From assembly GCA_022605405.1 (NCBI GenBank), contig JABYQQ010000007.1, forward strand, positions 434,001 to 498,000: 64,000 nt of DNA. Reading direction: 5' to 3'. This document shows, one piece after another, positions 37,946-58,390 of this stretch; positions within the stretch are counted from its first letter, which is position 1; every line of letters starts with the position of its first letter. The DNA is from Earliella scabrosa. Lineage: Eukaryota > Basidiomycota > Agaricomycetes > Polyporales > Polyporaceae. Made by a program: the position numbers and the translations under genes. The notes under the pieces are model-generated. The model saw only the letters and a program-made list of their open reading frames with translations, searched no databases and had not been told where the DNA came from.

Positions 37946-38028
37946 ACGTCGCGTTCAGGTTGTATCATCGACACTTGGCTTGCTTGTATCATCGACACTT
38001 GGCTTGCTTGTGTATTTGTGACGTCGAA

Positions 38029-38036
38029 GTGTTGCG
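38029..38036 (+). repeat. Left target-site duplication of the giant element
   Basis: GTGTTGCG, repeated at 57661-57668. The preceding A is also shared, so 8 or 9 bp; 8 bp is what is known for Zisupton-type elements. Confidence 0.82.
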
Positions 38037-38061
38037 AGAACAGCTGCATTCTCGTGCAATG

Positions 38062-38112
38062 TCCGCCGGATTTGGCGGATCTGGCGGATCCGGCGGATTT
38101 GGCGGATTTGGC
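38062..38112 (+). repeat. Left GGCGGAT-rich terminal repeat
   Basis: Tandem variants of TTGGCGGAT. The first 19 bases, TCCGCCGGATTTGGCGGAT (38062-38080), occur in reverse complement at 57615-57633, and the next 30 or so bases also align with few differences. Confidence 0.82.
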
Positions 38113-38288
38113 GGATGATGTACACCGAGGTATCGCCGAGGGATTCCCCGGCTATCTAGAATCTAGTATACGCGTGTGGTCTAGGACAGAGGCTTAAGAA
38201 CTTCAACGTACGTTCAAGTCCTGACGGGAGCACTTAGGCGCTTGTCGTGGCGCAACGTTCCACTCGCTTGCGCGCTGCACGGCGCTGC

Positions 38289-38316
38289 GAACCGTCATGC
38301 TGGCTCATGACGGTTC
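38289..38316. repeat. Perfect hairpin, 11-bp arms
   Basis: GAACCGTCATG, six-base loop CTGGCT, then the exact complement. Confidence 0.75.
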
Positions 38317-38374
38317 TGTTTTGTGAGATCTTTACCTTGCTCTTGCTCCGCACAACACCCCATCAGGGCAGCAC

Positions 38375-39085
38375 GCGGCACATAGAGCTGCGCTGCGGGA
38401 TCGACACCTGAGCGTCGCACCGCACAACTCTGCACCCCGACACACCCACGGCGCGGCACCGACGCCTCAACGTCGCACCGCACCTCACATAGGCAGCTGA
38501 GGGGCCGTCGCGTCCGCGGAACGCACCACTGGGCGACACACCTGCGCTGCGGGATCGACATCCCAGCGTCGCGCCGCACAACTTGGTACCGCGACACAAG
38601 AACTTGGTACCGCGACACACCTGCGGCGCGGGATCGACATCCCAGTGGTGCGCCGCACAACTTGGGACTGACACCTCAGTGTCGCACCGCACCACTCGGG
38701 AGCTCAACACACCTGCGGCGCGCGACCGACGCCTCAGTGTCGCACCGCACCACAAGGGACCTCGACACACGTGCGGCGCGGGAACGTGTGTCGAAGCGTC
38801 GCACCGCACCACACGGTACCTCGACCCACCTGCGGCGCGGGACCGACACCTCAGTGTCGCACCGCACCACTCGAGAGCTCAACACACCCGCGGCGCGGGA
38901 CCGACACCTCAGTGTCGCACCGCACCACTCGAGAGCTCAACACACCCGCGGCGCGGGACTGACGCCTCAGTGTCGCACCGCACCACACGGGACCTCGACA
39001 CACCCACGGCGCGGGAGCGACGCCTCTGTGTCGCACCGCACCACACGGTACCTCGACACACCTGCGGCGCGGGACCGGCACAGAT
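38375..39085. repeat. Left subterminal GC-rich tandem array, 58-bp unit
   Basis: GCGGCGCGGG-containing units start at 38773, 38832, 38890, 38948, 39006 (as ACGGCGCGGG) and 39064, about 58 bp apart; more diverged units extend to the left. Long open frames here on both strands are by-products of the repeat. Confidence 0.85.
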
Positions 39086-39531
39086 GAACAGAGGCTGCGG
39101 TGCGGCCCCTCAGCTCGTCATCGCACCGCACGACGCCGCATTACGATGCAAGTTGCGTCGCGGGGCCTGCGGCACCACTCGCCATGCCGCGGCGGTCAGC
39201 CACTGTTCAAAAGAGCTCACTCCTCCGACTAGCCTCCGACGGATGTTTCGCGCTCGCCCCTCCTTATACTCACTCATCTTCTGCCGCACCCCACCGTAGA
39301 GGGGCCTCTGGCCATTGGCCTTGGGGCTCTGGGCCACCGCATAATAAGTCACGCTGGTCGTCGTGCCGAGTCCGTCTCAGGGTTCCAACGCACGGCACGT
39401 CTACGTACATGCGCCTCGTGTCTTACTAGTTTGACGTGATAATCGATTAGGGAGATAACTACCTCCACGACCACTGCGACGTCGTGCGCGCGCTGTTTGA
39501 CCCTCTGCCAACGCTTGACCGTCCACCCACC

Positions 39532-41791
39532 ATGGTCCTCCTCGCTGATCTCTTCACCGTCCTTTCTGCCCGTGCAGAGCTATTCTCGTACCTAGAATTT
39601 CACAAACTCCTTGCGTTTTTGAAGGTCACGAAGCGATTCGCCCCCTTAATCAAGCTCAAGTCGCCTCGCCTCAACCAAGCAGAATCATTCCGCGCCCTCC
39701 TGCCGTCAATCCAAGCTATGACGGCGCATGTGGCGGATCTCACTCTTGGGGAGGTGGACACGCTGTGGGAGGTGTTAGGGGCGTACATTCTTGAGTGCGA
39801 TGAAGAAGAGGTCGCGCTCTCGCAGAGTACGATAGACGAGAAGATGTCCGGATTTGTCATCGGAAGTCATATCGCCGTTGGTGAGCCCAGTTGTTCCGAG
39901 CTGTTCACCGGCTGCAGTTGCTGAGATTATCGCCGGGACCATGCAGGGGTTGAGACATTGCTCCCTCCCGTCTCGATCTGCGTCAATCCTTCCTGTGCCC
40001 AAAGGGGCCGTAGCCTTGGTGGGCAGCAGTATGACCATGGTGTCTTTCTGTACACGCTGCGGCGCGGTACCCTTCCTGCGCGCGTCGTGTCGTTGTATTG
40101 CAAAGGTGCTTAGTTCATTCCGTCGATTGCTCACCAGGTCATGTTGTTAAAAGATGTCTCAAGCTTGTCATACTACTTACCGACCTAACTATTTTGTGAC
40201 GAACGGCAAATCTCCATCGGCCTTGCGCCAGTAGTACTACAGCGGCGTGCCCAACGTCATCGAGGCGACGGAAGGCTCCTATTTGGACGCTGACCTGATG
40301 CAATTTGTGCGGACACAAATGGCATTTGCGCAGTACGTTCATGTTAATCAGGTGTACTATGGCCACATGCCGTCTGACTGGGGTTGGAACCTTCGTAGTG
40401 CCTCAGGCGACACGGTTGCTCGCCTCTACAATCTCTCGGTGGCCAAGAGCGGGGAAGGGGACCGCGACCTCACCGGAGAGGTCGTTTGGCACGCGTTCTT
40501 CTTGCATGCGTTGCTTCTATCTCGTCAGCGTGACCGGCAGGCTCTCCAGGTGCAGCATGCGGGACGTCAGGCAGATCGGTACACCGCGGCGCTTGAAGCT
40601 CGAAATCTCTCGATCGTCGGAAAAGGCCAGCCAGAGTGGGCACACGCATGCAACGAATGCGAGAAACTCCTTGAGCCGGACGAGCCTGGTGGCCCTCGAA
40701 GTCAGTCCTCGTGGGTTTGTGAACTAGGTGTGTCTCCTAGGAGCTGATGCATGTTATTAGAACGGCTGTCTGCTTCTGTCATGGACGGTATCAGTGTGGG
40801 CCACACTAGATGCAATGTTGATCACTGCTGTAATCGGCTCAAGTTGCCTCGTGACCGCTTCTGCCCTGCTCACCACGCCCTCGAGTCCAAATGTGCCATC
40901 CCCGAGTGCTTGAACGCCGTGCGACCGGGCGCACGGACGTGTTCGACCTCCTCTCATCGGTCGGTCGAGGACGTTGGTCGCGCCCGCGGTCAAGCGATCT
41001 TCAGGCTCAAGAAACGCCTTCAAACGACCGCGTCGGAGGCAGGAGTCGCCTCGACGTCTTCCCCAGACGGTGATATCGATGTCATCGACGATCCTGATGT
41101 CGCGTCCGAGTTGCAAAAGGAGATCGAGGATGCAGCCTGCCAGGGGAAGTCTTCGACAAAATCAGGCTACAAGACGCGGCTCACGCGGCGCTGGACTCAC
41201 AATGAACAACTCCTCTTTCGCTGCTGTGGGGTCATCACATCTAGGGCAACATTCTTCGAAGCAGAATCCCCTTCTAATGCTTATGTGAGAGTCTACGCTG
41301 TCTTTGCACACGAACCTTTTTGACTTCCTGGGGTGCTGCATTAGCGGTTCCTGCAAGGGACCTTTCCAGAGGTTCTCAAGGGAGCTATGCCGTCTTTCAT
41401 ATTCTTCGACAACAACTGCAAGTTGTTGCGCCATCTCCGAGCCAATAACGACACACGCTTTCAAGACGTTGGGTTCCCAGTCGACGTCTTTCACGCGGTG
41501 AACAAGCACAAGGATAGCGACGCATACTGTCAACTCAACTGCAATCCGGCTGGCTTCAAGGAGCTGTTTGACAAGCTCAATCGGTGGTTATTCAATTCAT
41601 CCGCTGCAGAGCAGGGCAATGTATGGTTTGGAAAGTTCAAGACTGTCGTGCGAGAGATGGGCGAGGTCAGGTACAACTTCTTCTTGGATGAGATGATCAT
41701 GATCCACAACGAATGGCGTGTCTCTGTCCTTCGCGCGAGAGGGGCACAGCCTAGACATCTTCCAGAGGGCGAGCTTCGGAGAGCATTCTAG
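39532..41791 (+). pseudogene. KDZ transposase-type gene with CxC5/CxC6 cysteine clusters, in-frame stop
   Basis: The gene drives, or once drove, transposition. Start MVLLADLFTVLSARAELFSY. Exons 39532-39880, 39947-40105, 40164-40332 and 40399 onward keep phase. CxC5-like part: LLPPVSICVNPSCAQRGRSL, LPARVVSLYCKACHTTYRPN, YFVTNGK, EATEGSYLDADLMQFVRTQM, HASGDTVARLYNLSVAKSG. CxC6-like part: CNVDHCCNRLKLPRDRFCPA, KCAIPECLNAVRPGARTCST. The RNase H-like catalytic part follows: FIFFDNNCKLLRHLRA, FPVDVFHAVNKHKDSDAYCQ, WLFNSSAAEQGNVWFGKF, YNFFLDEMIMIHN. A TAG at 40232-40234 (codon 193) breaks the frame inside a conserved block. A 39-nt intron (40194-40232 region) could skip it but would be unusually short. 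Likely inactive unless read through or spliced out. Confidence 0.78.
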
Positions 41792-41879
41792 AGGGCTCAC
41801 AAAATGTATATTGTAGAGTTTTCGCTATAGTTATGCACTCGACATCGGAATTCCTAGATACATCGCTCGATACATGGCT

Positions 41880-43523
41880 CTATCTACGCGTCGCTGCGGC
41901 CCTCTGGAGTTCTGACCAACGTGAGAAGCGCTGTATGCCCCTCAACCACCGCTGGGTGCCGGTGATGGGATACTTGCCACCGTTGGCGAAGAACGCCTTC
42001 TGCGTCTGATGTCCGCACTCAACCCAACGGAAGAGACCGCCGGCAGAGAACTGCGTGAAAGACATGCGCGTCTCATCGTCCCCGATCACCGTATTGGAGT
42101 GGCGCAGGATGGCGGAGGGTATGAAGACGACGGAGCCCGGAGGGAACTCGATGACAACTTTGAGATCCCAAAGTACCAGATGTCCGCCGGTGTGGTAGTC
42201 GTAGTTGCCAAGCGCCATGATACCGCACCAGCCAGCCGCGTAGTTCATGTGGTCGGTGTGAACGCGCGTGACGGTCTGCGGGCCCAGATTGAAGCTGGCG
42301 GCGGCGAACACTGACTTGGGGAAGTTGTACTTGAGTCTCGGGTCATGATCTTGGAGCTCGAACTTGGTTTCTTCATAGTGCGCGTACATCTCTGGCGCGA
42401 AGAGCTTGAAGCCATCTAAGGCATGTGTGAGGTCTCAGACGGGTCGTGAGATTTCACGCGGCGACGTACTGTCCATGAAACCGGCTAGCCGCTTTATTGC
42501 GTGCTCGTTCAAGAACTTCTCCGTGCGTGCGGCATTGGGCCCTTGGCTGATGTTCGAGGGTTTCTGATCATCACAGGTAATCAATTCATCGTCGATAGGT
42601 CACGCTCGTGAGTAGCTGCCAACGCACCGTCTGTCCTCCGCCAAACGAGACTCCACAGTTCACGACCGAATAGTTGCCACGGCGATGGGCATCGGAGGAG
42701 GAGAACTTGTATTCGGTGTGGAGCTGTCGCATCAGGCGGACTGCTTCGTCTTGGTTCGCCATCCAAGCGGGCACGTCCTGTGGCATTCCAAGTAGAAGGA
42801 CGACAATGCGCCCCGCCGCATCGAGCAGCGGGCGAGGATTCCTAAGGAATCCAACGTCAGTTAGAGGGTTAGTGAAGATACAATCGAGGCGTACCTGCCG
42901 TCCCATTGGACATAAGTGAAACCGAGGTCGGCGAAGTACTGCAAGTCGTGGTTCTCCCGCTCCTCGGACGTCGAGGTCACACGGGCGCCCATGAACCCAG
43001 TGCTGGCCACAGGGAAGAGGAGGGGGTTGGCGTTCTTGCGACTCAGTTCGATCGCGAAGTCGACATCAAGCTTAATGGGCGTAGATCGTCCTATGATTCG
43101 GAAGGACGACCCCTTGAGCTTGCGACGTTCGCGCCCGGTGGTAGGAGTGCTCGTTGCAGCGTCTGTGGCCTCTTGGATGTGTCGTCTGAACGCACTGCGC
43201 GCTTTGTCACGCTGTTGCTTCTTACTGCCGCCGGCTGGGGTCTTCGTCTGCATGTAGCAGATGTCCGGTCGCACCGGGAGACTGGGGTGCGGCGGAGGGA
43301 GCAGCGACGGCACGGGCGGGAGGGCAGCGTGTTCGACCTGATATGGGCGAAAGGCCAGCAAGGAAGGAGGCGGGGGCGGGACGAGGACGTATGGCTCCAT
43401 GCGGGACGAAGGATGGGGCTGGGCAGCCGAGTACTGAGCAGCGTCGACAGGCGGGTCGTCGACCGCATCGTCTGAGGGGATGTCTTCGGGGTCGGTGTGC
43501 TCGCCGTTGGACTCCACGCGCAT
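41880..43523 (-). CDS. TET/JBP-family 2-oxoglutarate/Fe(II) dioxygenase
   Basis: Fungal TET/JBP enzymes oxidise modified DNA bases (5-methylcytosine in characterised TETs) using Fe(II), oxygen and 2-oxoglutarate. N-terminal Pro-rich, basic region, then YFADLGFTYVQWDGR, NPRPLLDAAGRIVVLLLGMP, HRRGNYSVVNCGVSFGGGQT, and the double-stranded beta-helix: NFPKSVFAAASFNLGPQTV, iron ligands HTD in TRVHTDHMNYAAGWCG (about residue 350), GGHLVLWDLKVVIEFPPGS, VVFIPSAILRHSNT (distal His), DDETRMSFTQFSAGGLFRWV (2-oxoglutarate-binding Arg). Three introns are removed; stop TAG 41880-41882. All catalytic residues are present. ATG 43523 is the first usable start; further 5' exons may reach about 45144 across a minisatellite. 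Converges with the transposase-type gene, 88 bp apart. Confidence 0.88.
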
Positions 43524-43717
43524 GGCGAGGGCGAGGATGTCACATTTCACCTGTAGCGGTGTCTGCACAGTGCGGCGTGCTTCAGGCTGCAGCGATCCTC
43601 GCGTAGCTGCTTGTGATGTCAGCACTTCTTGACGATGCAGCCAGGAGCATCCTCACCAAATATCCGCCGCCAGCTGCCCGGTTGCTTGACGGTGGGAGGC
43701 GCGGACGGGTTTCCTAG

Positions 43718-44260
43718 GGCTCAAGCGTCAGTAAAACACGCGGCTGGGTATTAACACGAGGCGGAGATAAGAGGGAGATGAGGAGGCAAGCGGTGTGCTC
43801 CGCAGCGTGTCGAGGATGGGACGAGAAGGGCGGGACAAGGTGGGCCCGCGAGCAGGGCGGCATGTGGAATGGACGCGGGTGCGAGCCGCGGGCTCCCGGA
43901 CATCTCGACGGCGGCATGTGGGACGGACGCAGCGGGGACGGGTGTGCTCCCTGTGGTCTCCAGGCTCGCGCGAGGGGGAGACGCGAGCCTCGCGTGATGT
44001 CGGACAGACATGGGTGCGACTTGGGCGGCTCCTGGACGTCTCGAGGGTGGAGGTAAGAGGAAGGGCGGGGTGCGCGGGATGTGCGAAGCACGCGGGTGCG
44101 ACTGAGGGGCTCCCGCGCGTCTCGAGGGTGGCGGGAGGAGGAAGCGCGAGGTGGTGGGACGGACACGGCTGCGACGGTTGGGCTCCCGGACGTCTCGAGT
44201 GTGGAGGGAGGAGGAAGCGCGAGGTGCGCCGGATGGGGGAAGGACGCGGGTGCGAGCGGT
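43718..44260. repeat. Degenerate GC-rich tandem repeats
   Basis: Diverged relatives of the 79-81 bp unit to their right (variants of GGCTCCCGGACGTCTCGA). Probably inside the first intron or upstream region of the TET/JBP gene. Confidence 0.65.
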
Positions 44261-44950
44261 GTGCTCCCGGACGTCGAGAGAGAGGAGGGAGGAGGACGGG
44301 CGAGGCTCGCGCGTGGTGGGACGGACGCGGGTGCGAGGTGTGCTCCCGGACGTCGAGAGAGAGGAGGGAGGAGGACGGGCGAGGCTCGCGCGTGGTGGGA
44401 CGGACGCGGGTGTGAGGTGTGCTCCCGGACGTCGAGAGAGAGGAGGGAGGAGGACGGGCGAGGTGCGCGCGTGGTGGGACGGACGCGGGTGCGAGCGGTG
44501 TGCTCCCGGACGTCGAGAGAGAGGAGGGAGGAGGACGGGCGAGGCTCGCGCGTGGTGGGACGGACGCGGGTGCGAGGTGTGCTCCCGGACGTCGAGAGAG
44601 AGGAGGGAGGAGGACGGGCGAGGCTCGCGCGTGGTGGGACGGACGCGGGTGTGAGGTGTGCTCCCGGACGTCGAGAGAGAGGAGGGAGGAGGACGGGCGA
44701 GGTGCGCGCGTGGTGGGACGGACGCGGGTGCGAGCGGTGTGCTCCCGGACGTCGAGAGAGAGGAGGGAGGAGGACGGGCGAGGCTCGCGCGTGGTGGGAC
44801 GGACGCGGGTGCGAGGTGTGCTCCCGGACGTCGAGAGAGAGGAGGGAGGAGGACGGGCGAGGTGCGCGCGTGGTGGGACGGACGCGGGTGCGAGCGGTGT
44901 GCTCCCGGACGTCGAGAGAGAGGAGGAGGACGGGCGAGGTGCGCGGAAGC
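44261..44950. repeat. Minisatellite with 79/79/81-bp higher-order unit of 239 bp
   Basis: GTGCTCCCGGACGTCGAGAG starts at 44261, 44340, 44419, 44500, 44579, 44658, 44739, 44818 and 44899. The spacing 79, 79, 81 repeats, so three subunits form a 239-bp higher-order unit that recurs almost unchanged. Confidence 0.92.
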
Positions 44951-45017
44951 AAGGGAGGGAGGTGGATGCTGCACTTGCAAGCAGCGGGGGTTTGCATGGA
45001 AGGAACGAGTGGCCGTA

Positions 45018-45144
45018 AACTCACCTGGGTCAACCACCATCCCTTCATGCTCGACCTCCCGGGTGCCACAGGCCTTGTTACCTCCAAGTTGATGCACTGG
45101 GAGAAGGCGTCGAAGACCTGCGACGCAATAGAATGTGAGTATCC
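45018..45144 (-). other. Possible 5' exon of the TET/JBP gene
   Basis: Minus-strand frame SIASQVFDAFSQCINLEVTR ... KGWWLTQ ends at a GTGAGT donor near 45027. Its partner acceptor could be CCCTAG at about 43718, giving an intron of about 1.3 kb that holds the minisatellite. Join and frame not proven. Confidence 0.3.
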
Positions 45145-45643
45145 TTTACGGCGGACTGTGAGAGACTCGCTCACCTGAGGTCACTTGAGTGAGGAGGTGG
45201 AGGCGGCGCTGCGAGGGCCGTTCAGCCACTCCTACGATTGGCGGCGTGGGTCAGTGCACAGAAGACATCCCCTAAAGCTGGACGAACGTACCGGTATGTG
45301 CAGACATTTTCGTCGAGGAGGAAAGAGGGGCAAGAGGGGCAAGAGGCGGGCGCGCACTTCGCGCTTGCGCAAGTTGCGAGGCTTTCTGGGGCGTCCGAAA
45401 ACTCGCCCATTTCGTCGCCTGAGGTCTCTTGATGATGCCAAGTAAGGCTGACCACAAGGATTGAGGTAGGTTGCGAGGGGGAGGCCTGGTGGCTAGGAGC
45501 CACACAGGGCGCTCGAACGCCGCTTGCGTCATCTATGTTACCTTATATGGAAGGTACGATGGCGCCCTTGCGACGCGCGCAAGGTTCGTCCTGCGCTGGG
45601 AGAAACCGAAATGTGTCGCCCAACGAGCCGCAATCGGCGAGTC

Positions 45644-45692
45644 TATAGCTCATTTGTCACTCAGCTACACTTGGAGTGACAAATGAGCTATA
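45644..45692. repeat. Perfect hairpin, 19-bp arms, 11-nt loop
   Basis: Arm TATAGCTCATTTGTCACTC (45644-45662) and its exact complement (45674-45692). Confidence 0.9.
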
Positions 45693-46101
45693 CGAGTGGG
45701 GCGCGCTGGCAGCCCTCGTGGTTCTGTGGCAGGTTCGTCAGGTTGAGGCTCAGTGAACATGGCGCATCCGAAAGACGTTGACGGCGGCGACGCATTCAGG
45801 CACGAACGCTCGGGTTCTGATGTACCGCTCGGGTCAAAGCAACATTGAAGCCGGGCATCCAGCGCGGTGGCTGGAATATTCCTCTTGGCACGCGAAGGCA
45901 TGCGGTCAGCCCGACCGGCCATCCTCAGCCAGCCGGCCGCGCGGTACCTAAGCCGCTGACTGCGCTCCTGCGCGACCCAGACCCTACATTATTTGTGTGA
46001 TGCATGTCGCGATTGGGCGGCTTGATAGGCCACTTTTGGCGTCGCAGCTTCATCCTGCTGAAAATGGGGTTTGGACCTGTGGGATAGACGTTCGTCAGGA
46101 C

Positions 46102-46147
46102 AATGCATAGTCGGACAGATGCCCTGGCATCTGTCCGACTATGCATT
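46102..46147. repeat. Near-perfect palindrome, 22-bp arms, 2-nt centre
   Basis: Arms 46102-46123 and 46126-46147 are exact complements, starting AATGCATAGTCGGACAG; the centre is CT. Confidence 0.92.
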
Positions 46148-46229
46148 AATCCGTCAACATGGTCGTGAGGGGGGCCTGGACAGATCTCCCAAACGCACCT
46201 GCACTTTCAGCTTTCGTGCTGCGAGCGCG

Positions 46230-46257
46230 CATAACGCGGTCATGTGACCGCGTTATG
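46230..46257. repeat. Perfect hairpin, 13-bp arms, 2-nt centre
   Basis: Arms CATAACGCGGTCA (46230-46242) and TGACCGCGTTATG (46245-46257). Confidence 0.9.
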
Positions 46258-46425
46258 ATACATCCGGCGCGCAGCGCAAGGTGAATGACACCGAGGCATT
46301 CGGGCATGGCACGTATCTGTCATCATCAGTCTCACGGCTATTGAATATTTCCACATCCTAGTCCCTAAGATGGACGGGTAACTGACGACTACAGTGCGGT
46401 CCCTGACTAGTACATATGCCGCACT

Positions 46426-47530
46426 TCAGGTTTCGCTTGGGTACGTGAATCGAATCCAACTCCCGTGCAAATAATGTCTCTCATGGGTTTGAAAAAAGCA
46501 GCGTGAGTCACTGCACGGCGCCCAATGCTCAATCCGCCGAGCTTGTGCGGACCACCGACAGCGTTGGCCTGAGATCTCGATTGGGTAGCCGTTGACCCAT
46601 GAGCGCCACGCACCGACCTCCCCGTCAGATTCGGGCTGCGGCTCCGAAGGTAGTGAGTCGGCACGGGTGTCTGGACCCAGAGAGTCCAGACCGCAGCTTT
46701 CAATGATCGCGAGTTTGGGTGCCTTGTTCGAGTCCTCGATCATGGCATCTAGAGCCGTTTCTGCGCCTGCCTGCACAATCATCGCCTTAACTCATGTCAG
46801 CGACAGATGTAAGGCTGAAACACCATGACTCACCAAGATTTGCTGAGTTCAGCCAAGATTCCCGCCCATCAGTACAGGTGTGCATCGTGTTCCAGGTCGA
46901 ACTCACCTCCTTGTCATCGTCGACGGCGACCTGCAAAGTAAACCGGCATTAGCCTTATCTCTAAGCTCTCTTGAAAGTTCTGCGTCTCTGCCACTGACCT
47001 CTCCTGTTGCCATGTTGACAGCTGCGCCTGGTCCCGCCTCTGCCTCTTGAGCCGGGGCAGAAGCGTTCCGATTGCCCGACAGTTGCAGTGAGGGACCGCC
47101 TATGCTTGATGAACTGCCGCTGCTCTCTTCCTGGGGCCCTGGTGGTCCCCCCGCAGAACCAACACCCGGTTCAGCGCTTGGGCGCTCCACTTTAATGGAT
47201 GGCGCGCTAGCTGCCTCTGTCTTGACGATATGCGTGGGCTCACGTCTGGGCTCTGTTGATGTCTCAACAACCTCCATCATTTTGACTGTACCATCACCAT
47301 GTGAGAACTTACACATGATGACATACCAAAGCTTATGAGCTGCTTACTTTGCGGCCTCGGGACATCATCATGGGGCGTTGACGTGACCGGGGCAGTATCG
47401 TCAACGCCCGACCCAGCCAACTGATGGCTATTATCCCGCCTGAATGTCGCAGTGTGCTGACGGGACCGAATCGTTCGGACGTCTTCAACTACCACACCGA
47501 AGAACGCATGGTGCGGTCGACCTTCATGCT
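46426..47530 (-). CDS. Unrecognised multi-exon cargo gene
   Basis: I do not recognise this gene. Minus-strand frames linked by plausible introns: HHAFFGVVVEDVRTIRSRQH (about 47510-47350), then DGTVKMMEVVETSTEPRREP with a Pro/Ser/Glu-rich disordered stretch (47290-46930), then ALDAMIEDSNKAPKLAIIES and a Trp-rich end with VGAWRSWVNGYPIEISGQ. The start is unknown and the frame may begin further upstream (to about 47850). The mix of one conserved-looking N-terminal block with disordered linkers is compatible with a transposon accessory protein. Evidence that it is one gene is weak. Confidence 0.35.
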
Positions 47531-48370
47531 GGATGATTAGTCAATTGCAGAGCCCATCATATGCGGCGGACTTACTTCCAGTTTCGCGAAGCGTAGCCAG
47601 GGTACTGGCTATATTTTGGGATGTAAGTTTGGCACGTCAGTTCAACGGTACAAGGGACCTGTACAAGCAACGGTCAGTGCACCCTCACCAGAGATTCGTG
47701 GTCGGACCTGGTCTTCGCGACGCCGCAGAGCCCGACGTGACATTGCGCAGACAGACACAAGAGGGAGTCAGAGGCAAGATGACAGGCGCGCATGCTCCCG
47801 TTCATGAGAATTTGGAGAAAGTATTTGCGCTGGGTTCTCGATCAGATTAAGTCATGTTCCAGCTAGCCGATTTGCTGGTCTCTCGACCTATTTCAGGCAC
47901 CATGGGACATGCACTCAAGAGCAGATTTGCGTTGTGCCCAGTGCGCGTTCAACCTGATCACGCAATAAATCAGAGTCTCTCGTCGTGATAACCTCAGTGC
48001 TTAGCCACATTTCGGAACAGGTGACGTACAACGATGCGAAAGTGTACTGTGGGTGTGAGAAGAAAGTCAAACGGGCGAGCGCCTGGCACAGTCAGCTTAC
48101 CCAAAGGAGCAAGCACCCATTTGTTTGATCAGATATATTTGATGACTCGGAACGTGCCTCAGTCTAGACTCAACTCAACTTGGAATATCATCACCCAAGA
48201 GCCAAGCGAAAGGTGCGGCATCCAATCTAACAACCCAAAGAGTGCACGCGGCTATTGTGCCGTCTCCGAGTGGGTATCCGCTATGTCTCAGATGTACGAA
48301 CAGTCCACCCTGAGAGCGTTGAGCATTCCTTCTAAGTTCTCCCCCTGGCAGCCTTCGCCGCCCCTCAGAA
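47531..48370. other. Unassigned stretch in the element
   Basis: Short plus-strand frames at 47533-47850 and 48034-48370 have no family resemblance. Could include 5' exons of the genes on either side. Confidence 0.35.
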
Positions 48371-49434
48371 ATGACTTCACAACGCCTCAGCCGTTTGCCC
48401 CTAGTCACTGCAACGGGCTGGAGTACCGCGCTAGCGCTCCAAACTATTCTCTCGCACCTCGACACTTCATCTATCCTGCTCCTCTTTGGCGGCATCCATC
48501 CTCTCCTCTCACGCATGCTCATCGCGGAGATGCAGCACCGGCTTCTAGTGTTTCTCAATGAGTGAGTGCCACATTTGGAGCACTGGTGAGGAGCTAGCCA
48601 AGGCTCATTCCAGATTGTCTTTGCAACAGTCTCATTGATTCCCCGGCTGATCTAATTGCTGTAATGGCGACGACGGAGGCTGTCTTCTCCGGGTCCGCCG
48701 CGTTCGCTTTCATCACGGGGATGCAAGTCGACCAGCCATACACGATGTGCGTCTCACATGCACACTACCGCCCTCTCGTCGCGTTCTTTAGGGTGCAGAG
48801 GGGCTTCCTGAACCTAGGAGAGAGGACGATTAGAAACCATCCAAACTACTGCATAGCCAGTCCGATGCACCCTCACCCCGGCCTCTCCCGCATGATCACC
48901 ATGATGAGCGCATGCAGCACGAAGCACCTCATCATCGAGGTGACTGGTACCGACAATCCCACGTACCCATCCTCTCCCTCCGTTCCCATCGCATTTGCGA
49001 GTTCGACTCTCTTCTTCAACTATGTTGCGGCGAACGGTTTTGTATGTGCATACCCCAACACCACCCTCCGTCATCGAGCTCTCATCCAACTTCATCACCT
49101 CCACAATCCATACCACACTCACGCCCAAGGTGACCCCTTCGTCCTCACTCGGTATGCGGAGCAAGGTGTGCGGTTCCGAACCCATCCGGGGCTCTGGGAC
49201 AGTGTGCCCGGCCCACCTCGCCAGGCCCGACCGTGCGCATCCTCGTGGCTGTCCCCCTGCGCTGTGCGGCATTTCGGAGATCGCGGATGTCTGACCGTTG
49301 CGTTCGACGGTACGACCGTCCCCGGGTTGGGGACGAAGTGGATTCGCGGAGGATCTCCCCGTTGCCCTTCAGGCCATATAGTCTCGACGCGAGTACATCC
49401 CGAAGGCTGCGCATGCATTCTGCCTGCTCCCTGA
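48371..49434 (+). CDS. Agaricomycete-specific protein of unknown function (cargo gene)
   Basis: Two exons: MTSQRLSRLPLVTATGWSTA ... AEMQHRLLVFLN, an intron of about 70 nt with GTGAGT donor and CAACAG acceptor, then DLIDSPADLIAVMATTEAVF, SGSAAFAFITGMQ. The later blocks AFASSTLFFNYVAANGFVCA, YPNTTLRHRALIQ, RYAEQGVRFRTHPGLWDSVP and CAVRHFGDRGCLTVAFDG match the spacing of a family common in Agaricomycete genomes: GSA...DLDxYVP...HSTVVMNY...AYPxLTL...RGFxxxTHxxxW. Here the usual DLDxYVP-like segment reads GMQVDQPYTMCVSHAHYR, so that motif looks altered. I know no experimental function. Ends at TGA 49432-49434. Confidence 0.6.
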
Positions 49435-49569
49435 TGATTATCTGTATGTGTGTAACCGAACCAACCGTCCCGCCCAAAATGATAGCTCTGCTGAATGTAT
49501 CACCTCACCCACTGTGCGCCGCAACATCTGACTACGACATGTACGTGGTTGTGTAGTACCGTGAAATTT

Positions 49570-52500
49570 CTAAGACGACACAGGTTCTTGTACTTCTATG
49601 ACCATGGCTCCGACGTTGCGTGTGACCCATCTCATCCGAGGTTCTGAGGGATGGCGTGAAGAAGGTATGCTCGGCCCCAACGGGGCCGAGGAGCTGTTGA
49701 TGTTAGCTTCCTCAGAGCTCGACGAAGAAAAAACCATTGGTTCAACGCGCTTCCTCGGCACAGGCATTCGAGGAGGGGAGGAGTCATCGTCGGTCCAGCC
49801 ATGAACTCGGGCCGTGACAGGGCCGGCAGGTGGCCGAGACCTGCTTGATTGGGGTTCTTGTGGGCCCTGAATGTGATTACGGGCCGGTGTTCCGTCGGAG
49901 CTCTCATTCCGATTGGGGCCCCGAGGGTGATCTCCACAACAGAGATACGTGAATGAGCGATTCCCAGAGAAGCCAACCAAGCAGAACTCACCCAGGCCGA
50001 CTGCGCGATTTGCTCGGCTCTTCTTGGGACGGTGTCTTGGCGACTGTTCAGAAGACGTCGAACTAGGGGAGGATGCTGCCTCCCGCCCGATATTCTGCGA
50101 GTGCTCTCGCTTCTTCATCGCCTCAACCTTGGCCCAGAAGACTGTATCACCGACGATCGTCCGCAGACGCTTGACAAGCCCTCCAGCACCTAGGTGCACG
50201 CCATCCCTGAGCAGTGTCGATGTCATGTCCCGGATGTCCTCATTGTCAGTGTCCATGAGGGCATGGCATCGGGTTGCGTCCTTGATCCAATCATGGCCGC
50301 GCCCCAAGAATTCTTCAAGAACGGCCTTGGTGACGTGTTGTCCGGCAGCGGCTGGAGGTGCATCGTTAGGCAGAGGCCCTTGAGCATACAGAGACCCCGT
50401 AGTCTCCACCCAATCCAGCAATCGGCCTGGTTCCTTTTTAGAGTTGTCACCTGGGCAACTGCGCATGTCCAAAACGACCGGATCTTCACCATGAGTGTGC
50501 ATAAGCCATTCGAGAAGCGCAGCATGCCGCTCTTCAGCGGTGTATGTCGTCGTAGGGCGCTTGCGACGACGTGCGGCCCGACCTTTGCCTTTGGTCTTAG
50601 ACGATGGCTGGGCGGCATCGCGCAAGATGGGTGCTGGGTGGGTGACTGCTTGCGTCGCTGACTCATCCTAATCAATGTGCCAATCATCAAGGTGTGGCCT
50701 GTGCTGCCTGAGGAATCGGACCCTTACCATGTCAACTCGCAATGCTACCCACTGCGTGATACCTTGCAGTGAACGAGATTGGTGGTCGTGCTGGAGGCGC
50801 ATGAGTTCGAGCTCGTAGTCAGGCCTCTCCACCCTCAGAGTCCCAGCATCGTCGGTGACGGCCACTTGCGAGTAGTGAATCCGTCCGTTCACCATGCGCC
50901 CGCAGCTGATTCGTGTATTCGCTGTTGGGGGAGATCAGAGAATGCCAACCAGCTGAACCCGTCAGTCACCTGTAGGATACGCACCTCGAATATATGGTCT
51001 CAACTCCCGACACAGTAGCGCACAGAAATGATCTGCCATCATGGCAGAGTAGCCCCACCGTGCAAAGTGTGTCGCCTGTGCTCCCAGCAGCTCGACGAGG
51101 GTGTGAGCGGCCTCAATTGGAATGCCAGGTGACCGGAGATCCAGACCCAGAGCCACGACGTCAACTTTGAGCCCTACGTCTGCGGGTGCTTCAAACCCGC
51201 TGCCATCACTGCTCTGCCGTGCGTTTGACGTCGGCTTGTCGTCCAGCTTGTCGTCCACAAACTTGCTTCCCTCGTCAGTCCACGCTTGCTGAGATGTGTC
51301 ACCCATAGGAACATCGCCGTTCAAGGTGGGTGCATGGGCCTCTGCGTCGAGCTCTTCAGCCTCTTGTCCACTCTAAAGGGTGCAGAGTCTATCAAATTGG
51401 GGTCAAGCAAACTAGTTCACAACCTGTACTCACAAAGAGACCATCCTCTACAGCTGACCATTCCAGCTCCTGGTATGAACAGCCATGATCTACTTCGTGT
51501 TCGGTAGAATGATGAGTTTCTCGACCAGCAGCCGAGCTGTGCGTGACGATGGGTTCGGTATCGCCAACCTGTGACGTGGTGATGTTGTTCGGACTGGACG
51601 GAATGAGAGTGATGAAGAATGTTTGGCGAGGGCGACGGAGTGGGTGTGCAACTATGTTCGAGGGAGACGAGGATGACGGAATACCTGGAGGAGGGAACTG
51701 CTCTGGGGCGGACATCAGCGCCGGCAGACTGGCAACCTCCTCATCATCTGTCTCGCCCTCAGCATCGGCATCCGAGCTATGTGACGAGCGGAGGGCGGAG
51801 CTGGCACGTGCACTAAATGTTGGCCGCTGACTGAGGCTCGAAGGGGCTCGGACGGAGTGCAAGGAAGAGGCAGACTGTTCCGTGGTGACTGCGCTCCTGA
51901 ATTTGGGATATGAAGGTGTCGGGGAAGAAATTGGTGAGCTCAAGGGTGAACTTGACTGTGAATTCCCCATGGCCTCGTCCCGGTTTCTATAAAGGGTGTG
52001 AGTGACCCTTATTCAGACTGGTGGGTGCATGGTACTGACCTTGAAAGCAATGTGAGACTCGCTTCGGCTGTCTCACGGGCCTCATCTTCATCGGCAAAGA
52101 TATTTGGAGACCAGTATGACTCAACAGCGTTGATGGTGGCATGCCCACCCGACGGCATGCCACTGTCAGGTGTTGCAGCACGGGAAATCACGGGATGAGG
52201 AGCTGGAGCGTCGGGGGCATTGGCAGATGAAGAGGGCGACGAATCGGACAAGTACTCAGTGAGAAGCTGGATTGCCGGATGCGGTGCGAGGCCGACCGCC
52301 ACTGGCTGTGCCTGTAGCCCTCGCGCGTCCAACTCTCCTGATCGACGTTCGAACTCTGCAACTTTGCCATGACTCTTGAAGTAGCGCACAACCTGGGATA
52401 AGTGAAAGTGCAGGGACCGGGTAGAGGACGGACTTCATACCTGTCCTACTTGCTCAGGCCATTCGCCATCGCGCATTAGACCCAACACATAGTTGTCCAG

Positions 52501-52909
52501 CTCCCAGTCTCGACGCTCCCATCCCCACCGTGTTGGACGTGGAGGCAGACTCTCACCCATGGTCATGAGGCCACGGAGATAAGGGATATTGAGGGCGACA
52601 CCGGAGAGAAGAATGCGTCGTCGAAGCTCCTGTCCCTCCAGCACATTGAGCGAGTTGCTGCCCCGCCATGGAGCTGTAGCGTTTTTTCTCAACAGTTGCT
52701 ATGTGCATCGCGCAAGATTAATGCAGAAGGGCTTGTGAAGGCTCTGGCAACATACCAGAAGAACACCTTTCTCAAGCAGCTGGCTGAGGATAGCAAGAGA
52801 CCCAGGAATGAGACTGAAAACCGTAAATGGCGGAGGAACGAAACACTGACACATCTTCGTCCGTCAGTGGCTTGCGTCCTAAACCAGTCTGGATGTTGGG
52901 CGACGTCAT
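49570..52909 (-). CDS. Large multi-exon cargo gene of unknown function
   Basis: I do not recognise this family. Minus-strand blocks that appear to belong together: MTSPNIQTGLGRKPLTDEDV (ATG 52909), LRKNATAPWRGSNSLNVLEG, IPYLRGLMTMGESLPPRPTR and WGWERRDWELDNYVLGLMRD, RYFKSHGKVAEFERRSGELD, Ser-rich linkers (NSQSSSPLSSPISSPTPSYP), AHTLVELLGAQATHFARWGY, GRIHYSQVAVTDDAGTLRVE, then the basic KTKGKGRAARRRKRPTTTYT and EERHAALLEWLMHTHGEDPV, ending with Ser/Pro-rich sequence at TAG 49570. The basic cluster looks like a nuclear localisation signal. Order and strand agree and intron-like borders lie between blocks, but exact joins are not worked out and it could be two genes. Confidence 0.45.
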
Positions 52910-53257
52910 GACAGGTGCAATAAGGACAGAACTTGAAGATGAGAGTGAACGCAAAGCCTGTTCACTCTCCGATGGGCCCAGATCAAATCGCACACATCAA
53001 GATAATCTAATCAATGCGCAAACGTCATGCCTTATGATGCGCATGTAGTATTGCCTGTCGCAGGGACCTTTTTTGAGTGTGCGAGACCCATGATATGTCA
53101 CCGACAGCCAACCATAACGTGCCAGAGAACCTAGCCCCAAGAGCACGCACACACATGTACTTCTCCGAAGCTAAACCTAACCAGTACATGAACAACTTCC
53201 CTAACCAATACACCGTCTGTGTCTCCCCATCTATCCACAGGGCTCCAACTACTCAGG
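52910..53257. other. Spacer between two minus-strand cargo genes
   Basis: No coding block seen; probably the promoter of the gene to its left and the 3' UTR of the gene to its right. Confidence 0.4.
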
Positions 53258-55416
53258 CTACCGACGCGACCGTGTCTCGTAAACCTTGCGGAATGCTTTC
53301 CATAGACCTGACGGAGTTCGACCATGAGCAACCCACCGCGCCATGGCCTGACGGTCATCGCGACCAGCCAACCAAATATTCCAGTTTTCATTCAGAGTTG
53401 CGCGTTTCGGAGTGTGCCCAGGAAACGCGGTCGAAAATGCAATGCTGGTATCCACACCTTCGTGCAGAAGTTTCTCGTACGCCATGAAGCCGGCATGCAT
53501 GTCGCAAACATACCGCCAGGGCCAACCGGATTTAGAGGATCCACGAGGCGCAGCGGATAAGTCCAATGGTCGGGACGAAGAAGATGTGTGCGAGGTGGAG
53601 GGGCCATCGGACGACTGGCGTGCTGTGTGGGCAGGGGGCGCCGCGGCATCGGATGCTAACAGAGATGGCAGGCGAGCAATCTCGGGAACGGGATCGGACA
53701 CTGTAGCGCCTTCGAAATCCCATGAGAGAGAAGGGGAGGATTGCTTCTTGCGGGAGTATGCCAGATGGCGCTCGGAGAAAGAGGAAGATCGGGAGTGGGT
53801 GGGTGAAGGAGGAACAGAAGGCGAGGGAAATGTCATGTTGCCCCAATCTGAGCCACTCGCCAAAGAGCCGGGAGTGGAACGTCCGGAATGAGGAGTCAGT
53901 GGAGGGAAACCCTCGGGGGACAATGTGCGACGGCTCTTGGGAGTTGGAAGTCGCGCGCGCGAGGTCTGTGGGGTACGAGCCATGCGTGAAGGTGTGCCTG
54001 AGGCGGAGAGGACAAGAGGCGGACTGTCAAGTCTGGTGGCAGGTGGGGAGAGGGAAGGAGGGGACGATGCAGCGCGCTTGGTACCTTCCCGCAACGACAA
54101 GGGCATACCGGGCCCATGGGTCACACCCTCAGAGCGGAACAGCAGGTCTCCAACCAGAAGTACATTGAGACGAGGACTGGAGGTTGACTGCTCAATCCAT
54201 CGATAACGACGTTTGTCGAAAAATTGGAAGAAAGCAGTGTCTGCTTTGAAACGTTGCACACAATGAGGAGAATCCTTCGGATGGAACCAAGGATGGAAGG
54301 GGGCGACGACATCGGCATAGATAGGCATCTCGTCGTTCTGAGCAGGCCCAAAATGAGCGAGCGGATGCCGAGAGATGACGGTGAACATACCTGAGTCCAC
54401 CATGTCAAGCTAACAGATTTCTTTTGCTCTGCCGCAATGCTCTCCAGCTGAAGGGCTTGCTCGGCCTTGCGCACAGACTCGAGATCAGACTGGACGAGAC
54501 GATGGTCGTAGCTCGGCGTGACAGATAACGCGTACTCCTTCTCCGCGGGACGCTGCTGATCCTGAGACTGATCTTGGTTCTGCTTACGTTTCCCTTTCGC
54601 CCGAGTGCCTTTGCTGCTACCCTCCTGCCGCCTCTGCGACCGCGACCCAGCTGCTTTGACCTTGTTGTCCACTTTCTCCCGAGATTGCGCCGTTGATTTT
54701 CGAGTCACGCGCCGTGGAGGTTCGTCCTCTGACTCCCTCTGGGGCTCTGTCATGCGAACCAGATCGTCACACGACTTGAAACGGAATCATTATCGAACCC
54801 AACATACCATCGGAAGAGATGTGTGAATGTTGATGAGAGGGAGACTGTGGCGAGCGAGGAGGTGACTGAACATCAGCGTAGGCTGAAATGCCAAATAGTT
54901 AGCATCAAGGCAGAGGGCCACTGGAAAGCGTGCGTACACTGTCCAGCAGCCTTCTGATGCTCGCCAACCGCACAGCGGCGCAAACCAGCGGTCTTGTGGT
55001 GGGTATAGCCGCAACAGGATTTACACAGGCCAAACATACAACCCATGTTGACCGCCTGACTGCGTCCGGCATTGACACACAGCCACCCCTTGCACGTTGC
55101 TCGCGGAGCCCCCTTGGGAGGCTTCCCTCGCTCCCTGTCATCCAGCCATCGGTAGTACGTGCAACGTTGCGGACGATCCTTTTGTGGGACGTTTCGTATG
55201 CACTACAGCGTCACAAGGCACATGATAAATAGCGTGACAAACGATGCATTTAACAAGTCAACTTACGTGCTCATACCATCGGTGGAGATTGTCGGGATCT
55301 CCTAGGCCATTGCAGAGGATGGGAACGGTGACGAAGCCGCTATCACAGCGAGGACAGGGAGTGAGATGTGGGAGAAGAGTAGATATGTCTGCAGGGAGTG
55401 GCGCGACAGGATCCAT
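53258..55416 (-). CDS. Cys-rich, putatively zinc-binding cargo protein with conserved C-terminal block
   Basis: Start MDPVAPLPADISTLLPHLTP (ATG 55414-55416). The N-terminus has CPRCDSGFVTVPILCNGLGD and, after introns, RCTYYRWLDDRERGKPPKGA, CKGWLCVNAGRSQAVNMGCM, FGLCKSCCGYTHHKTAGLRR: many Cys/His in CxxC-like pairs, suggesting metal binding. Further exons give ADVQSPPRSPQSPSHQHSHI, then EPQRESEDEPPRRVTRKSTA, a basic KGTRAKGKRKQNQ patch, KKSVSLTWWTQ joined to NDEMPIYADVVAPFHPWFHP, long Ser/Pro-rich sequence, and a conserved-looking end WPWRYVCDMHAGFMAYEKLL ... NENWNIWLAGRDDRQAMARW. Stop at 53258. Introns are consistent in phase through the middle exons. I know no name for this architecture; nuclear location and nucleic-acid binding are inferred from composition. 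Confidence 0.6.
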
Positions 55417-55955
55417 GTGTGAAGATGAGTAAGGGTGTCAGAGAAGTAAAAGAGGAATATATGGTGTGAACAGCACAGGATGGAAATGGGAAGAGGAGAG
55501 GAAGGGAAGGCAAGCCTGCTGGTCGCAGACTGACCTAGATAAATGGGCACCCCGCTAGTGTCCAGCGTAGGTGATCGAACACTGCGCGTGATCGAATACT
55601 GGGGACCAGATTTTCCGGAGAAAGTATCTAACACCACAACCTAGGTACCAACGGTTTCGGCGCGGCGGCACAGATTGCAACAGCCTGAGTAAGCCTGGTG
55701 ATAGAGCCGCTTTACGGTGCAACATAGTGCAGAAAGATGATCGACTGTGCAAGCTGGCACTGGCAGCACTGAACCAGTGCAGCACCTCAAAAGATTGTGG
55801 TAACTTGCATCGAAGGTATAGACATGCTACTAACAGAACAAAGACTCAAGATCCCGCCACGTCAAACTGAGGAGACTGAGGTATATGCGCTGCTGGATCA
55901 ACACGCACCACAGAATCCGCCGCGCAAACGCACAGTGCAACTGGACTCTGCAGCG
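55417..55955. other. Stretch between the last cargo gene and the right array
   Basis: No coding block recognised on either strand; should include the promoter of the Cys-rich cargo gene. Confidence 0.4.
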
Positions 55956-57330
55956 GTCCCGCCGCGCGCCCGGCATGAGGTAACATGTGCCACTGCGGCA
56001 TGAATGGGGAAGCTGAGTGGAACAGCGGAAACGTAAGGAAGCTGGGGCGGCCCTGGACAGTCGAGCAGTCCCGCACCGTGAAAGGCTGACCAGGGTGGTG
56101 CGGGACGGGACAGGTGAGGCGTGCCGCATCGCATGTCGTCTGAAGTAGCGCAAGGCCCATGGGGCACGGCCGAGCGCGGTGCGCGACGGACCAGGCGAGC
56201 AGTCCCGCGCCGCGCAGGACTGATGAGGGTAGTGCGGGACGGGACAGTTGAACCGTGCCGCACCGCATGATGTCTGAGGTAGTACAAGGGGGATGCGGTA
56301 CGGACAAGGACCGTGCAGGACGGAACAGCCAAGCAGTCCCACCCCGTGAAAGGCTACGAGCGCGGTGCGGCACGGGACAGTCCAGAAGTCCCGCACCGCT
56401 TGTCGACTGCTCAACTGTGCCATGCGGTACGGGTGAGGGCGGTGCGCGACGGACCAGTCGAGCAGTCCTGCCCCGCATGTCGTCTGAGGTAGTACAAGGG
56501 CCATGCGGTGCGCACCGAGCGCGGTGCGGGACGGAACAGTCCCGCAGTCCCGCGGCGCGCAGGCCTGAGGAGGGTGGTGCGGCACGGGACAGTCCAGAAG
56601 TCCCGCACCGCTTGTCGACTGCTCAACTGTGCCATGCGGTACGGGTGAGGGCGGTGCGCGACGGACCAGTCGAGCAGTCCCGCCCCGCATGTCGTATGAG
56701 GTAGTACAAGGGCCATGCGGTGCGCACCGAGCGCGGTGCGGGACGGAACAGTCCCGCAGTCCCGCGGCGCGCAGGCCTGAGGAGGGTGGTGCGGCACGGG
56801 ACAGTCCAGAAGTCCCGCACCGCTTGTCGACTGCTCAACTGTGCCATGCGGTACGGATGAGGGCGGTGCGCGACGGACCAGTCGAGCAGTCCCGCCCCGC
56901 ATGTCGTCTGAGGTAGTACAAGGGCCATGCGGTACGCACGAGCGCGGTGCGCGACGTAACAGTCAAGCAGTCGTCGAGCAGCCACTCACCGCATGTCGTT
57001 TGAGGTAGTATCAGGGCCATGCAGGAGGGACGAGGGCGGTGCGGGACGTGACAGTGCAGGAACCCCGCACCGCACAGCGTGTGAGGGTGATGCAGTACTA
57101 GGGACAAGCGGCGCTGCACGGGGTTGTACCAGTAGTGGAGGTCGTGATGGTCGGACAGCGGTGCGACAGTCAATGGTCTATAGGTCCCACCTCAGGCTGG
57201 CAAGTCTCGCACTGCATGTCGTTGAAGGTAGTACCAGAGCAATGCAATACTGACGAGTGCGGTGCGTGACGTGACAGTACAAGACCCCCGCGCCGCACGT
57301 CGGGTGAGGTGGTCGCAGTACTAGGAATGA
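55956..57330. repeat. Right subterminal GC-rich tandem array with a 212-bp unit
   Basis: GGTGCGCGACGGACCAGTCG starts at 56441, 56653 and 56865: two exact steps of 212 bp in nearly identical sequence. Around this core are shorter, diverged relatives built on GCGGTGCGGGACGG and CAGTCCCGCACCGC. Minus-strand frames up to 286 residues here are repeat by-products. Confidence 0.88.
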
Positions 57331-57582
57331 GCGGCGCTGCATAGGAGGGTGCGTATTGGGGAATAGTTAGAAGGGTAATAAGTTGTTACTGGACTGGAAG
57401 GCCTACGACGCGTGGATAGATTACGGCATATGAATGGAAATGGCATAGAGTAAGTAGGTGGGGAGAGATGTTGACTACAAAACGATTACAGAGGTCAACA
57501 GAAGGTGCCGTTGACTGTTTATTATGCAGGGTGCAATGGGTGACGGCGATTGATGGGGAGATGGGATCAACAGTGTCTCGGG
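57331..57582. other. Unique sequence between the right array and the right terminal repeat
   Basis: AT-richer than the array; no gene seen. Confidence 0.4.
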
Positions 57583-57633
57583 GAAATCCGCCAAATCCGC
57601 CGGATCCGCCGGACATCCGCCAAATCCGGCGGA
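57583..57633 (-). repeat. Right GGCGGAT-rich terminal repeat
   Basis: Reverse-complement partner of 38062-38112; the exact 19-bp match is 57615-57633. Confidence 0.82.
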
Positions 57634-57660
57634 TGATGCCCGGAAACGCAGATAAATTGA

Positions 57661-57668
57661 GTGTTGCG
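57661..57668 (+). repeat. Right target-site duplication of the giant element
   Basis: GTGTTGCG, directly followed by GTAGTACTCGGAATTCAATG, the continuation of the thioredoxin 3' flank (compare 36231 onward). Confidence 0.82.
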
Positions 57669-58390
57669 GTAGTACTCGGAATTCAATGTAACATGCACGC
57701 ATATTACCCATGTGCATGGCCTCCCGAATCACGCTGTGTCCAGAGGTAGGATGCAATATTAATGTTGAACGTTGAAGGACAGTCTATCCCCTCAGTAGGT
57801 CCCATCGTCTGCCTAGGGAAGACAATTAGGATGCAATGAAGTCGCTGACTGACATGGCCCGACACCGAGCGGAACGGAAATAGAAGAGGTTCTTCGCGGG
57901 CCGCTGCTTCCGCCGATCCGGACAGCTTCGCTTGCTCGCGGCGCCGGGCGCTATTGGCACCTTGCGATGTACCATCGGCCATGGGTGTATCAGGACCCCA
58001 GACTTTGTGTACAAACCATAATTTTTCGCACAGAGACTCAGAATGCTACATGGGACGAAGGGAACTACACGTTGCTGTCATGGTTGTACATACATGAGTA
58101 GGTACACTGTCAGCTGACAGAGAACGCCCTCGCTAACATCTGTAGCTGCAGCTCTGAATGACGTCGACGGTCAATGTAGTCGATTTGAGCAAGCTGTGAA
58201 TCTCGCAAACAGGCGCAGTTCATACGACCCATGTGATCATCACCGTCCTCGAACTGTGCCCGACCCGGGTTTCTCAACCGACGCTCTTTGCTGTGCGAAG
58301 CTCCTGCCCGCCTTTTCGATGCCAAAGTTTCCATTGCGTACGTCATTCTCGTTCTTCCTTCCCTGCCTCATGGACGATCACGGGTTGGCT
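57669..58390 (+). repeat. Displaced 3' flank of thioredoxin copy 2
   Basis: Collinear with 36231-36925 beyond thioredoxin copy 1. Shared landmarks: CGGAATTCAATGTAACATGC, CGGAACGGAAATAGAAGAGG, CGTCCTCGAACTGTGCCCGA, CCATTGCGTACGTCATTCTC. No gene. The right edge runs into the mannosidase promoter. Confidence 0.85.

Follow-up and report, generated by a model that had tools for sequence, protein, structure and literature searches.

DNA transposons that carry TET genes have been described in mushrooms, namely Kyakuja and Zisupton of Agaricomycetes including Polyporales; as characterized in the text of that survey, Zisupton generates 8-bp target-site duplications, and the Kyakuja families of Laccaria have a 7-bp duplication and CA..TG termini (Kojima 2025, PMC12730594). 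In sporeless Pleurotus ostreatus, poMSH4 is disrupted by a 6,792-bp multi-copy fragment with a 739-amino-acid (aa) CxC5/CxC6 open reading frame (ORF), which the authors, in the one study found that discusses the mobility of such proteins, linked to Copia retrotransposons; neither "target site" nor "inverted repeat" is used in the main text of that paper (PMC7641404). In Pfam descriptions, the CxC5 and CxC6 clusters are KDZ-associated. No description of the ends of a CxC5/CxC6 transposon was found in the open-licence literature searched. Here we analyzed a stretch of 64,000 nucleotides (C7:434001-498000, hereafter the window; C-numbers denote contigs, and positions without one are those of the window) of the 51.7-Mb, 48-contig genome of Earliella scabrosa. 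Positions 38036 to 57659 very probably constitute a large DNA transposon belonging to a CxC5/CxC6 lineage, for which we propose a DDE transposase, a set of core genes, and an optional TET module. This reading is based on the ends of the element, its duplications, five related elements, their gene order, the selection pattern, and a mosaic TET block, together with a predicted fold.

The insertion was recognized from two thioredoxin genes, copies 1 and 2, both of which match Pfam Thioredoxin. Copy 2 together with its displaced flank aligned with copy 1 over 803 columns spanning the junction (687 identical, 86%), followed by four more collinear pieces (22 to 79 columns, 83 to 95% identity), separated by DNA present in copy 2 only and reaching approximately position 58388. 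The paralogous flank of copy 1 is uninterrupted. The initial annotation had postulated a single insertion after the thioredoxin duplication, an empty site preserved next to copy 1, and collinearity of 57669-58390 with the copy-1 flank, and all three were borne out by this alignment. The block is thus a real transposition-type insertion, later than the thioredoxin duplication. Its proposed borders were off by one base: in the window alone, the 9-base string AGTGTTGCG is common to both borders and leaves a one-base ambiguity, which is resolved because a second copy (C4:948612-968746) has the duplication TGTGGCTC on both sides.

Searching the genome with the CxC6 exon returned 32 matches, which were merged by hand into 21 CxC5/CxC6 loci; element ends are known for the loci examined, a minority of the 21. 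Five elements in total are complete, measure 16.6 to 20.1 kb, and start with GAGAACA. The closest relative of the window element, the C4 copy mentioned above (20,135 bp), has the same first and last bases, and no copy of the window element with other ends, which would have spoken against the proposed borders, was seen in the sequence examined; the two are 90% identical across 19,320 aligned columns when tandem repeats are counted and 93 to 96% identical in long unique pieces. The right end is AAATTG in these two copies and an ATCAG ending, TTAATCAG or a near variant, in the other three. At the called borders, the 8-bp duplication matched in 8 of 8 bases in all five complete elements; the 120 other offsets of the right-hand window gave at most 5 or 6. 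The duplication of C1a is not independent of the search, because its right end was located via the left 8-mer, and the sequence beside that end matches the right ends of other elements. The size and cargo of the element could thus be defined as claimed; the claim that such exact definition is rare was too strong, as this genome contains four other complete relatives. A sixth left end lies at C2:2610006, with its right end beyond the stretch examined. C31:250080-250137 is a 58-bp remnant holding both element ends (with 3 mismatches in the 43 bp on the right, another last base, and a duplication that matches in 7 of 8 bases), which has the form expected of an internal-deletion product. The segments on C16 are more distant, truncated relatives. 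There, C16:461606-520284 consists of three head-to-tail 19.56-kb units with 99.8% identity, in which the CxC5/CxC6 gene is truncated at the N terminus and accompanied by homologues of E and F (see below); no clear duplication was discerned by eye at the array edges.

Since this array of 19.6-kb units testifies that large duplications occur in this genome, the window block might instead be a segmental rearrangement rather than a transposition product. This is hardly credible in view of the uninterrupted paralogous flank and of the five sites with related ends, and we consider it refuted because of the five perfect duplications.

The first gene found in the element is that of the CxC5/CxC6 protein (Table 1). 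Its coding segments were recognized by third-position-biased change between the window and C4 copies; the ratio of synonymous to nonsynonymous codons was 22:11 in ORF 40748-41320 and 7:1 in 41345-41788. Five short GT..AG introns interrupt the part found, neither a start codon nor a possible earlier exon was found in the element, and in the C4 copy the reading frame stays open for 675 codons up to the stop. The predicted fold resembles DDE transposases when Foldseek's candidates are rescored with VIA-align. Homologues (19 proteins found) occur in several mushroom genera and are annotated as hypothetical.

The transposase and four further genes, which we call C, D, E, and F, have matches in identical order in all five complete elements, C being inverted in the window and C4 copies relative to the other three. 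Between these two copies, gene C differs in 22 synonymous and 7 nonsynonymous codons and gene E in 30 and 17, respectively. The annotated C4 version of gene F, P0020 (640 aa), has N-terminal Cys clusters, which in our reading resemble GRF-type zinc fingers, although no Pfam model matched. Homologue searches yielded three proteins for F and two for D, four of the five from E. scabrosa, and sequence searches of the PDB with TET, D, and F gave nothing relevant. The predicted structure of F was unusable (predicted local distance difference test score, pLDDT, 37.7). A search with gene D gave 80 matches in total; the relatives among them at C1:2414496, 2429687, and 2444874 are some 15.19 kb apart, a spacing that suggests another large tandem element with a D-like gene. 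Each 150-bp end of the five complete elements contains 13 to 15 CpG.

Several observations weigh against the interpretation of the block as a transposon with these components. Foldseek gave no match for the transposase model at an E value of ≤0.001 (the best, SPT6, had 0.09), and because of this the DDE assignment rests on the VIA-align rescoring and the conserved residues. In the window copy, the transposase gene is interrupted by a TAG in frame at 40232-40234. Genes C, D, E, and F lack a significant Pfam match, and D is only about 22% identical to its counterparts in other elements. The Tet_JBP match (E = 1.2e-5, 25 bits) falls under the curated Pfam cut-off of 34.9. Because of the TAG, the window copy is probably non-autonomous; a copy such as that on C4 could supply transposase in trans. 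One could also regard the CxC5/CxC6 gene as a passenger, with the element mobilized by another of its genes (e.g., E or F, which too are regularly linked to CxC5/CxC6 loci) or by a trans-acting KDZ transposase, the genome being rich in KDZ. We deem this improbable, as the predicted fold of the CxC5/CxC6 protein is DDE-transposase-like, which speaks for this protein without ranking it against the other element genes.

Taking the CxC5/CxC6 protein as the transposase, we asked to which family it belongs. The initial label, KDZ class, could not be upheld in the strict sense: the CxC5/CxC6 clusters are present (CxC5 in 17 and CxC6 in all of the 18 homologues scanned), and the KDZ domain PF18758 was detected neither, at E ≤ 1, in 20 ORF segments from the element nor, at E ≤ 10, in any of the 18 homologues, a missing Pfam match being compatible with distant homology. 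PF18758 is abundant elsewhere in the genome, with at least 129 matches (83 loci after hand collapsing of the matches listed); among those listed, none lies in the window element or less than 10 kb from the 21 CxC5/CxC6 loci, the nearest being about 10.0 kb away, edge to edge, on C26. Neither Pfam nor linkage upholds the KDZ label, with the C26 locus as a possible exception. The Plavaka transposase PF18759 has at least 126 matches in the genome, none of those listed being within C7:472036-491659. Starships, another kind of giant element, have a tyrosine recombinase captain near the 5' end; no recombinase family was found in the 20 ORF segments scanned. The CxC5/CxC6-KDZ and TET associations reportedly go back to Iyer et al. 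in 2014.

That the element is nonetheless a KDZ transposon (Kyakuja or Zisupton) whose KDZ domain has diverged beyond Pfam detection seems somewhat unlikely. Such an assignment would agree with the Pfam link of CxC5 and CxC6 to KDZ transposases and with the D...D...H..H..C...E layout of the CxC5/CxC6 transposase, which we take to resemble that of KDZ. It would also suit the C26 locus, where a CxC5/CxC6 locus (483606) and an F homologue (455679) enclose a KDZ match (472550) and a TET match (468456); the KDZ-TET pair in C26:455679-483869 is perhaps a transposon nested within another. The 8-bp duplication matches Zisupton, and the TET association matches Kyakuja, as both are described in the text of that survey (Kojima 2025, PMC12730594). 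Apart from the absence of PF18758 from the homologues and, among the matches listed, from the surroundings of the CxC5/CxC6 loci, the KDZ assignment is opposed by the ends of the element, GAGAACAGCTGC and (reverse) CAATTTATCTGC, which have no terminal inverted repeats, only the subterminal arrays being inverted, and which differ from CA..TG with 7 bp. In addition, as reported in the text on Pleurotus, intact KDZ genes of that fungus carry CxC2 and never CxC5/CxC6 (PMC7641404). We put forward, tentatively and at a little less than even confidence, that the CxC5/CxC6 proteins are the transposases of large eukaryotic DNA transposons that form a lineage of their own, apart from KDZ. Its defining traits would be GAGAACA starts, 8-bp duplications, CpG-rich subterminal arrays, and a conserved core of five genes, with a TET-minisatellite-gene C cassette that would be swapped between members as a defense against host DNA methylation.

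The TET/JBP-like gene is present in two of the five complete elements (window and C4), the other three having no TET match. It is convergent to the transposase gene, about 90 bp from its stop, and its translation has HTD and a later H; an HxD...H iron site is expected of TET/JBP dioxygenases. Between the window and C4, synonymous and nonsynonymous codons numbered 23 and 6 in the last segment (ORF 41883-42434) and 24 and 21 in the first. The gene belongs to a block shared with a relative on C14. At the protein level, the C14 and window versions are 91% identical in the last TET exon, 73% in the first, and 86% in gene C, while the C14 transposase shows 54% and 61% identity for two of its exons, no closer than in TET-less elements (49 to 66%), and aligns at the nucleotide level over 151 and 252 bp only, at about 71%. 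Taking the transposase as reference, gene C is inverted in the elements of the window, C4, and C14 and uninverted in the TET-less elements examined and at C1:98-111 kb, which has TET. This pattern suggests that the TET-minisatellite-gene C block has been exchanged as a cassette between element lineages. A recent transfer of TET, to which the approximately 90% protein identity with C14 seemed to point, was rejected, because the nucleotides are only about 78% identical.

Stronger constraint on TET and gene C than on the transposase could produce a similar contrast without any exchange. The highly conserved protein of the last TET exon (91%) accords with this, as does the modest nucleotide contrast between pieces of the block (73 to 78%) and the transposase fragments (about 71%). 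We nevertheless judge it unlikely: at fourfold sites (31 to 86 per exon), the window and C14 elements have diverged less in the block, with differences of 0.44 and 0.61 for TET and 0.48 for gene C, than in the transposase, with 0.77 and 0.71, and the minisatellite and intergenic DNA align across the block, while only about 0.4 of the 2.3 kb of the transposase gene does. Exchange of the cassette is thus the reading we retain. The genome has 21 TET-like matches; a CxC5/CxC6 match lies no more than 4.1 kb away from 4 of them, and 8 are 3.7 to 4.2 kb from a KDZ match among those listed (all start to start). None is less than 5 kb from both, and nine have neither within that distance among the KDZ matches listed, one of these nine having a KDZ match at 9.9 kb. 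The eight KDZ-linked genes possibly belong to Kyakuja-type TET elements.

We also compared CpG decay between copies with and without TET. In the TET-less pair C9/C2 (C2:2595001-2610006), 60 of 83 differences in 12,043 columns were CpG transitions, 47 decayed in C2 and 13 in C9, with a CpG:non-CpG transition ratio of 9.4. The excess of CpG to TpG/CpA changes in C2 looks like a sign of methylation-driven decay and fits methylation of such copies. The ratio was 2.3 overall and 2.8 in non-coding non-repeat DNA for the TET pair window/C4, 0.9 (C4b/C9) and 0.6 (C4b/C1a, 345 columns) for older TET-less pairs, and 1.7 for the thioredoxin flanks; the three C16 units have 4 to 7 differences, too few for this comparison. 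Age and selection confound this comparison of pairs as a test of protection by TET from CpG decay.

Table 1. Features of the window element and complete relatives (window positions unless a contig is named)
Feature	Position	Strand	Remarks
Left target-site duplication	38028..38035	.	AGTGTTGC
Complete element	38036..57659	+	19,624 bp; GAGAACAG...AAATTG; without terminal inverted repeat; C4 copy ends identical
Right target-site duplication	57660..57667	.	AGTGTTGC
Left subterminal CpG-rich array	38062..38116	+	9-bp unit
Right subterminal array	57584..57633	-	left-array motif inverted; minus-strand match to C4 left array, 94% over 50 columns
CxC5/CxC6 transposase gene	39451..41791	+	Pfam CxC5 E=2.4e-8, CxC6 E=5.6e-22
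Transposase exons (six found)	39451-39880, 39947-40105, 40164-40332, 40399-40700, 40761-41284, 41345-41791	+	
Candidate first catalytic Asp (VMDG)	40784..40786	+	column ≥90% conserved; putative role
Candidate second catalytic Asp (FFDNNC)	41408..41410	+	invariant column D379; putative role
Candidate catalytic Glu (SSAAEQ)	41609..41611	+	invariant column E449; putative role
Block common with C14 relative	41870..48145	-	TET-like gene, minisatellite, gene C; ~6.3 kb; main pieces 73-78% nucleotide identity
TET/JBP-like dioxygenase gene	41883..43523	-	490 aa, no internal stop; exons 43523-42895, 42841-42628, 42563-42470, 42415-41883
Minisatellite	44151..44930	.	period 79 bp, 9.8 copies
Gene C exon	46429..46791	-	small protein, possible Cys/His cluster by eye; orientation opposite to TET-less relatives
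Gene D	48598..49431	+	open 278 codons; 19 synonymous, 5 nonsynonymous codons; matched in 5/5 complete elements
Gene E	49573..51372	-	main exon 49573-50667; further open segments upstream, to 51372, probably included
Gene F	52438..55437	-	probably multi-exon; 19 synonymous, 16 nonsynonymous codons vs C4
Minisatellite	56224..56972	.	period 212 bp, 3.5 copies
Complete element C4b	C4:267645-285606		
Complete element C1a	C1:624695-641293		
Complete element	C9:1264776-1281407		

Two other repeats were noted. A sequence of about 60 bp in the right flank (57765-57825) is listed at 32 places in the genome with 80 to 94% identity and is probably a small repeat. Four loci (C8:883014, C16:439414, C20:555525, and C4:2182478) carry related right ends, CGGCAACGCTAATGTTCAG (TGATG in one), in different flanks and probably represent another element family.

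In the mechanism that we infer from these data, including the binding sites, the catalytic residues, the cut-and-paste chemistry, and the role of TET, the transposase most likely folds around an RNase H-like DDE core whose first strand is followed by the inserted CxC6 zinc cluster. The enzyme would bind the CpG-rich 9-bp arrays just inside both ends, cut at GAGAACA.../...AAATTG, and join them to target DNA at positions staggered by 8 bases, and host repair would then yield the 8-bp duplication. The genes C, D, E, and F would be inherited core genes of the lineage and not random cargo. The TET/JBP-like gene would be an optional module, moving together with the minisatellite and its variant of gene C. 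Its product is probably an oxidase of the element's methylcytosine, perhaps of that in the subterminal arrays, and this would allow transposase binding or gene expression.

The exact ends, duplications, and core gene set obtained from five elements in one genome make the CxC5/CxC6 transposon an assayable system, and the presence of TET-bearing and TET-less elements side by side makes the benefit of a possible methylcytosine oxidase to a transposon testable. The CxC5/CxC6 protein is 8 to 16% identical, in the rows shown, to DDE enzymes of the IS256 type (ISCth4), IstA, and retroviral integrase, from which it differs in its zinc-cluster insertion and its intron-bearing eukaryotic gene. Compared with the poMSH4 insert, as it is presented in the main text of that report (PMC7641404), the elements described here have exactly defined ends and a transposase with a predicted DDE-like fold. 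Like the TET elements of Kojima (2025, PMC12730594), they are Agaricomycete DNA transposons with a TET/JBP gene, and the 8-bp duplication is like that of Zisupton; judged by the descriptions in that text, they are set apart by CxC5/CxC6 without a PF18758 match, the five-gene core, and the occurrence of TET in some members only. Unlike Zisupton, the window element has no terminal inverted repeats, and unlike Kyakuja as described there, the ends are GAGAACA...AAATTG or ...TTAATCAG and its near variant instead of CA..TG, with a duplication of 8 rather than 7 bp.
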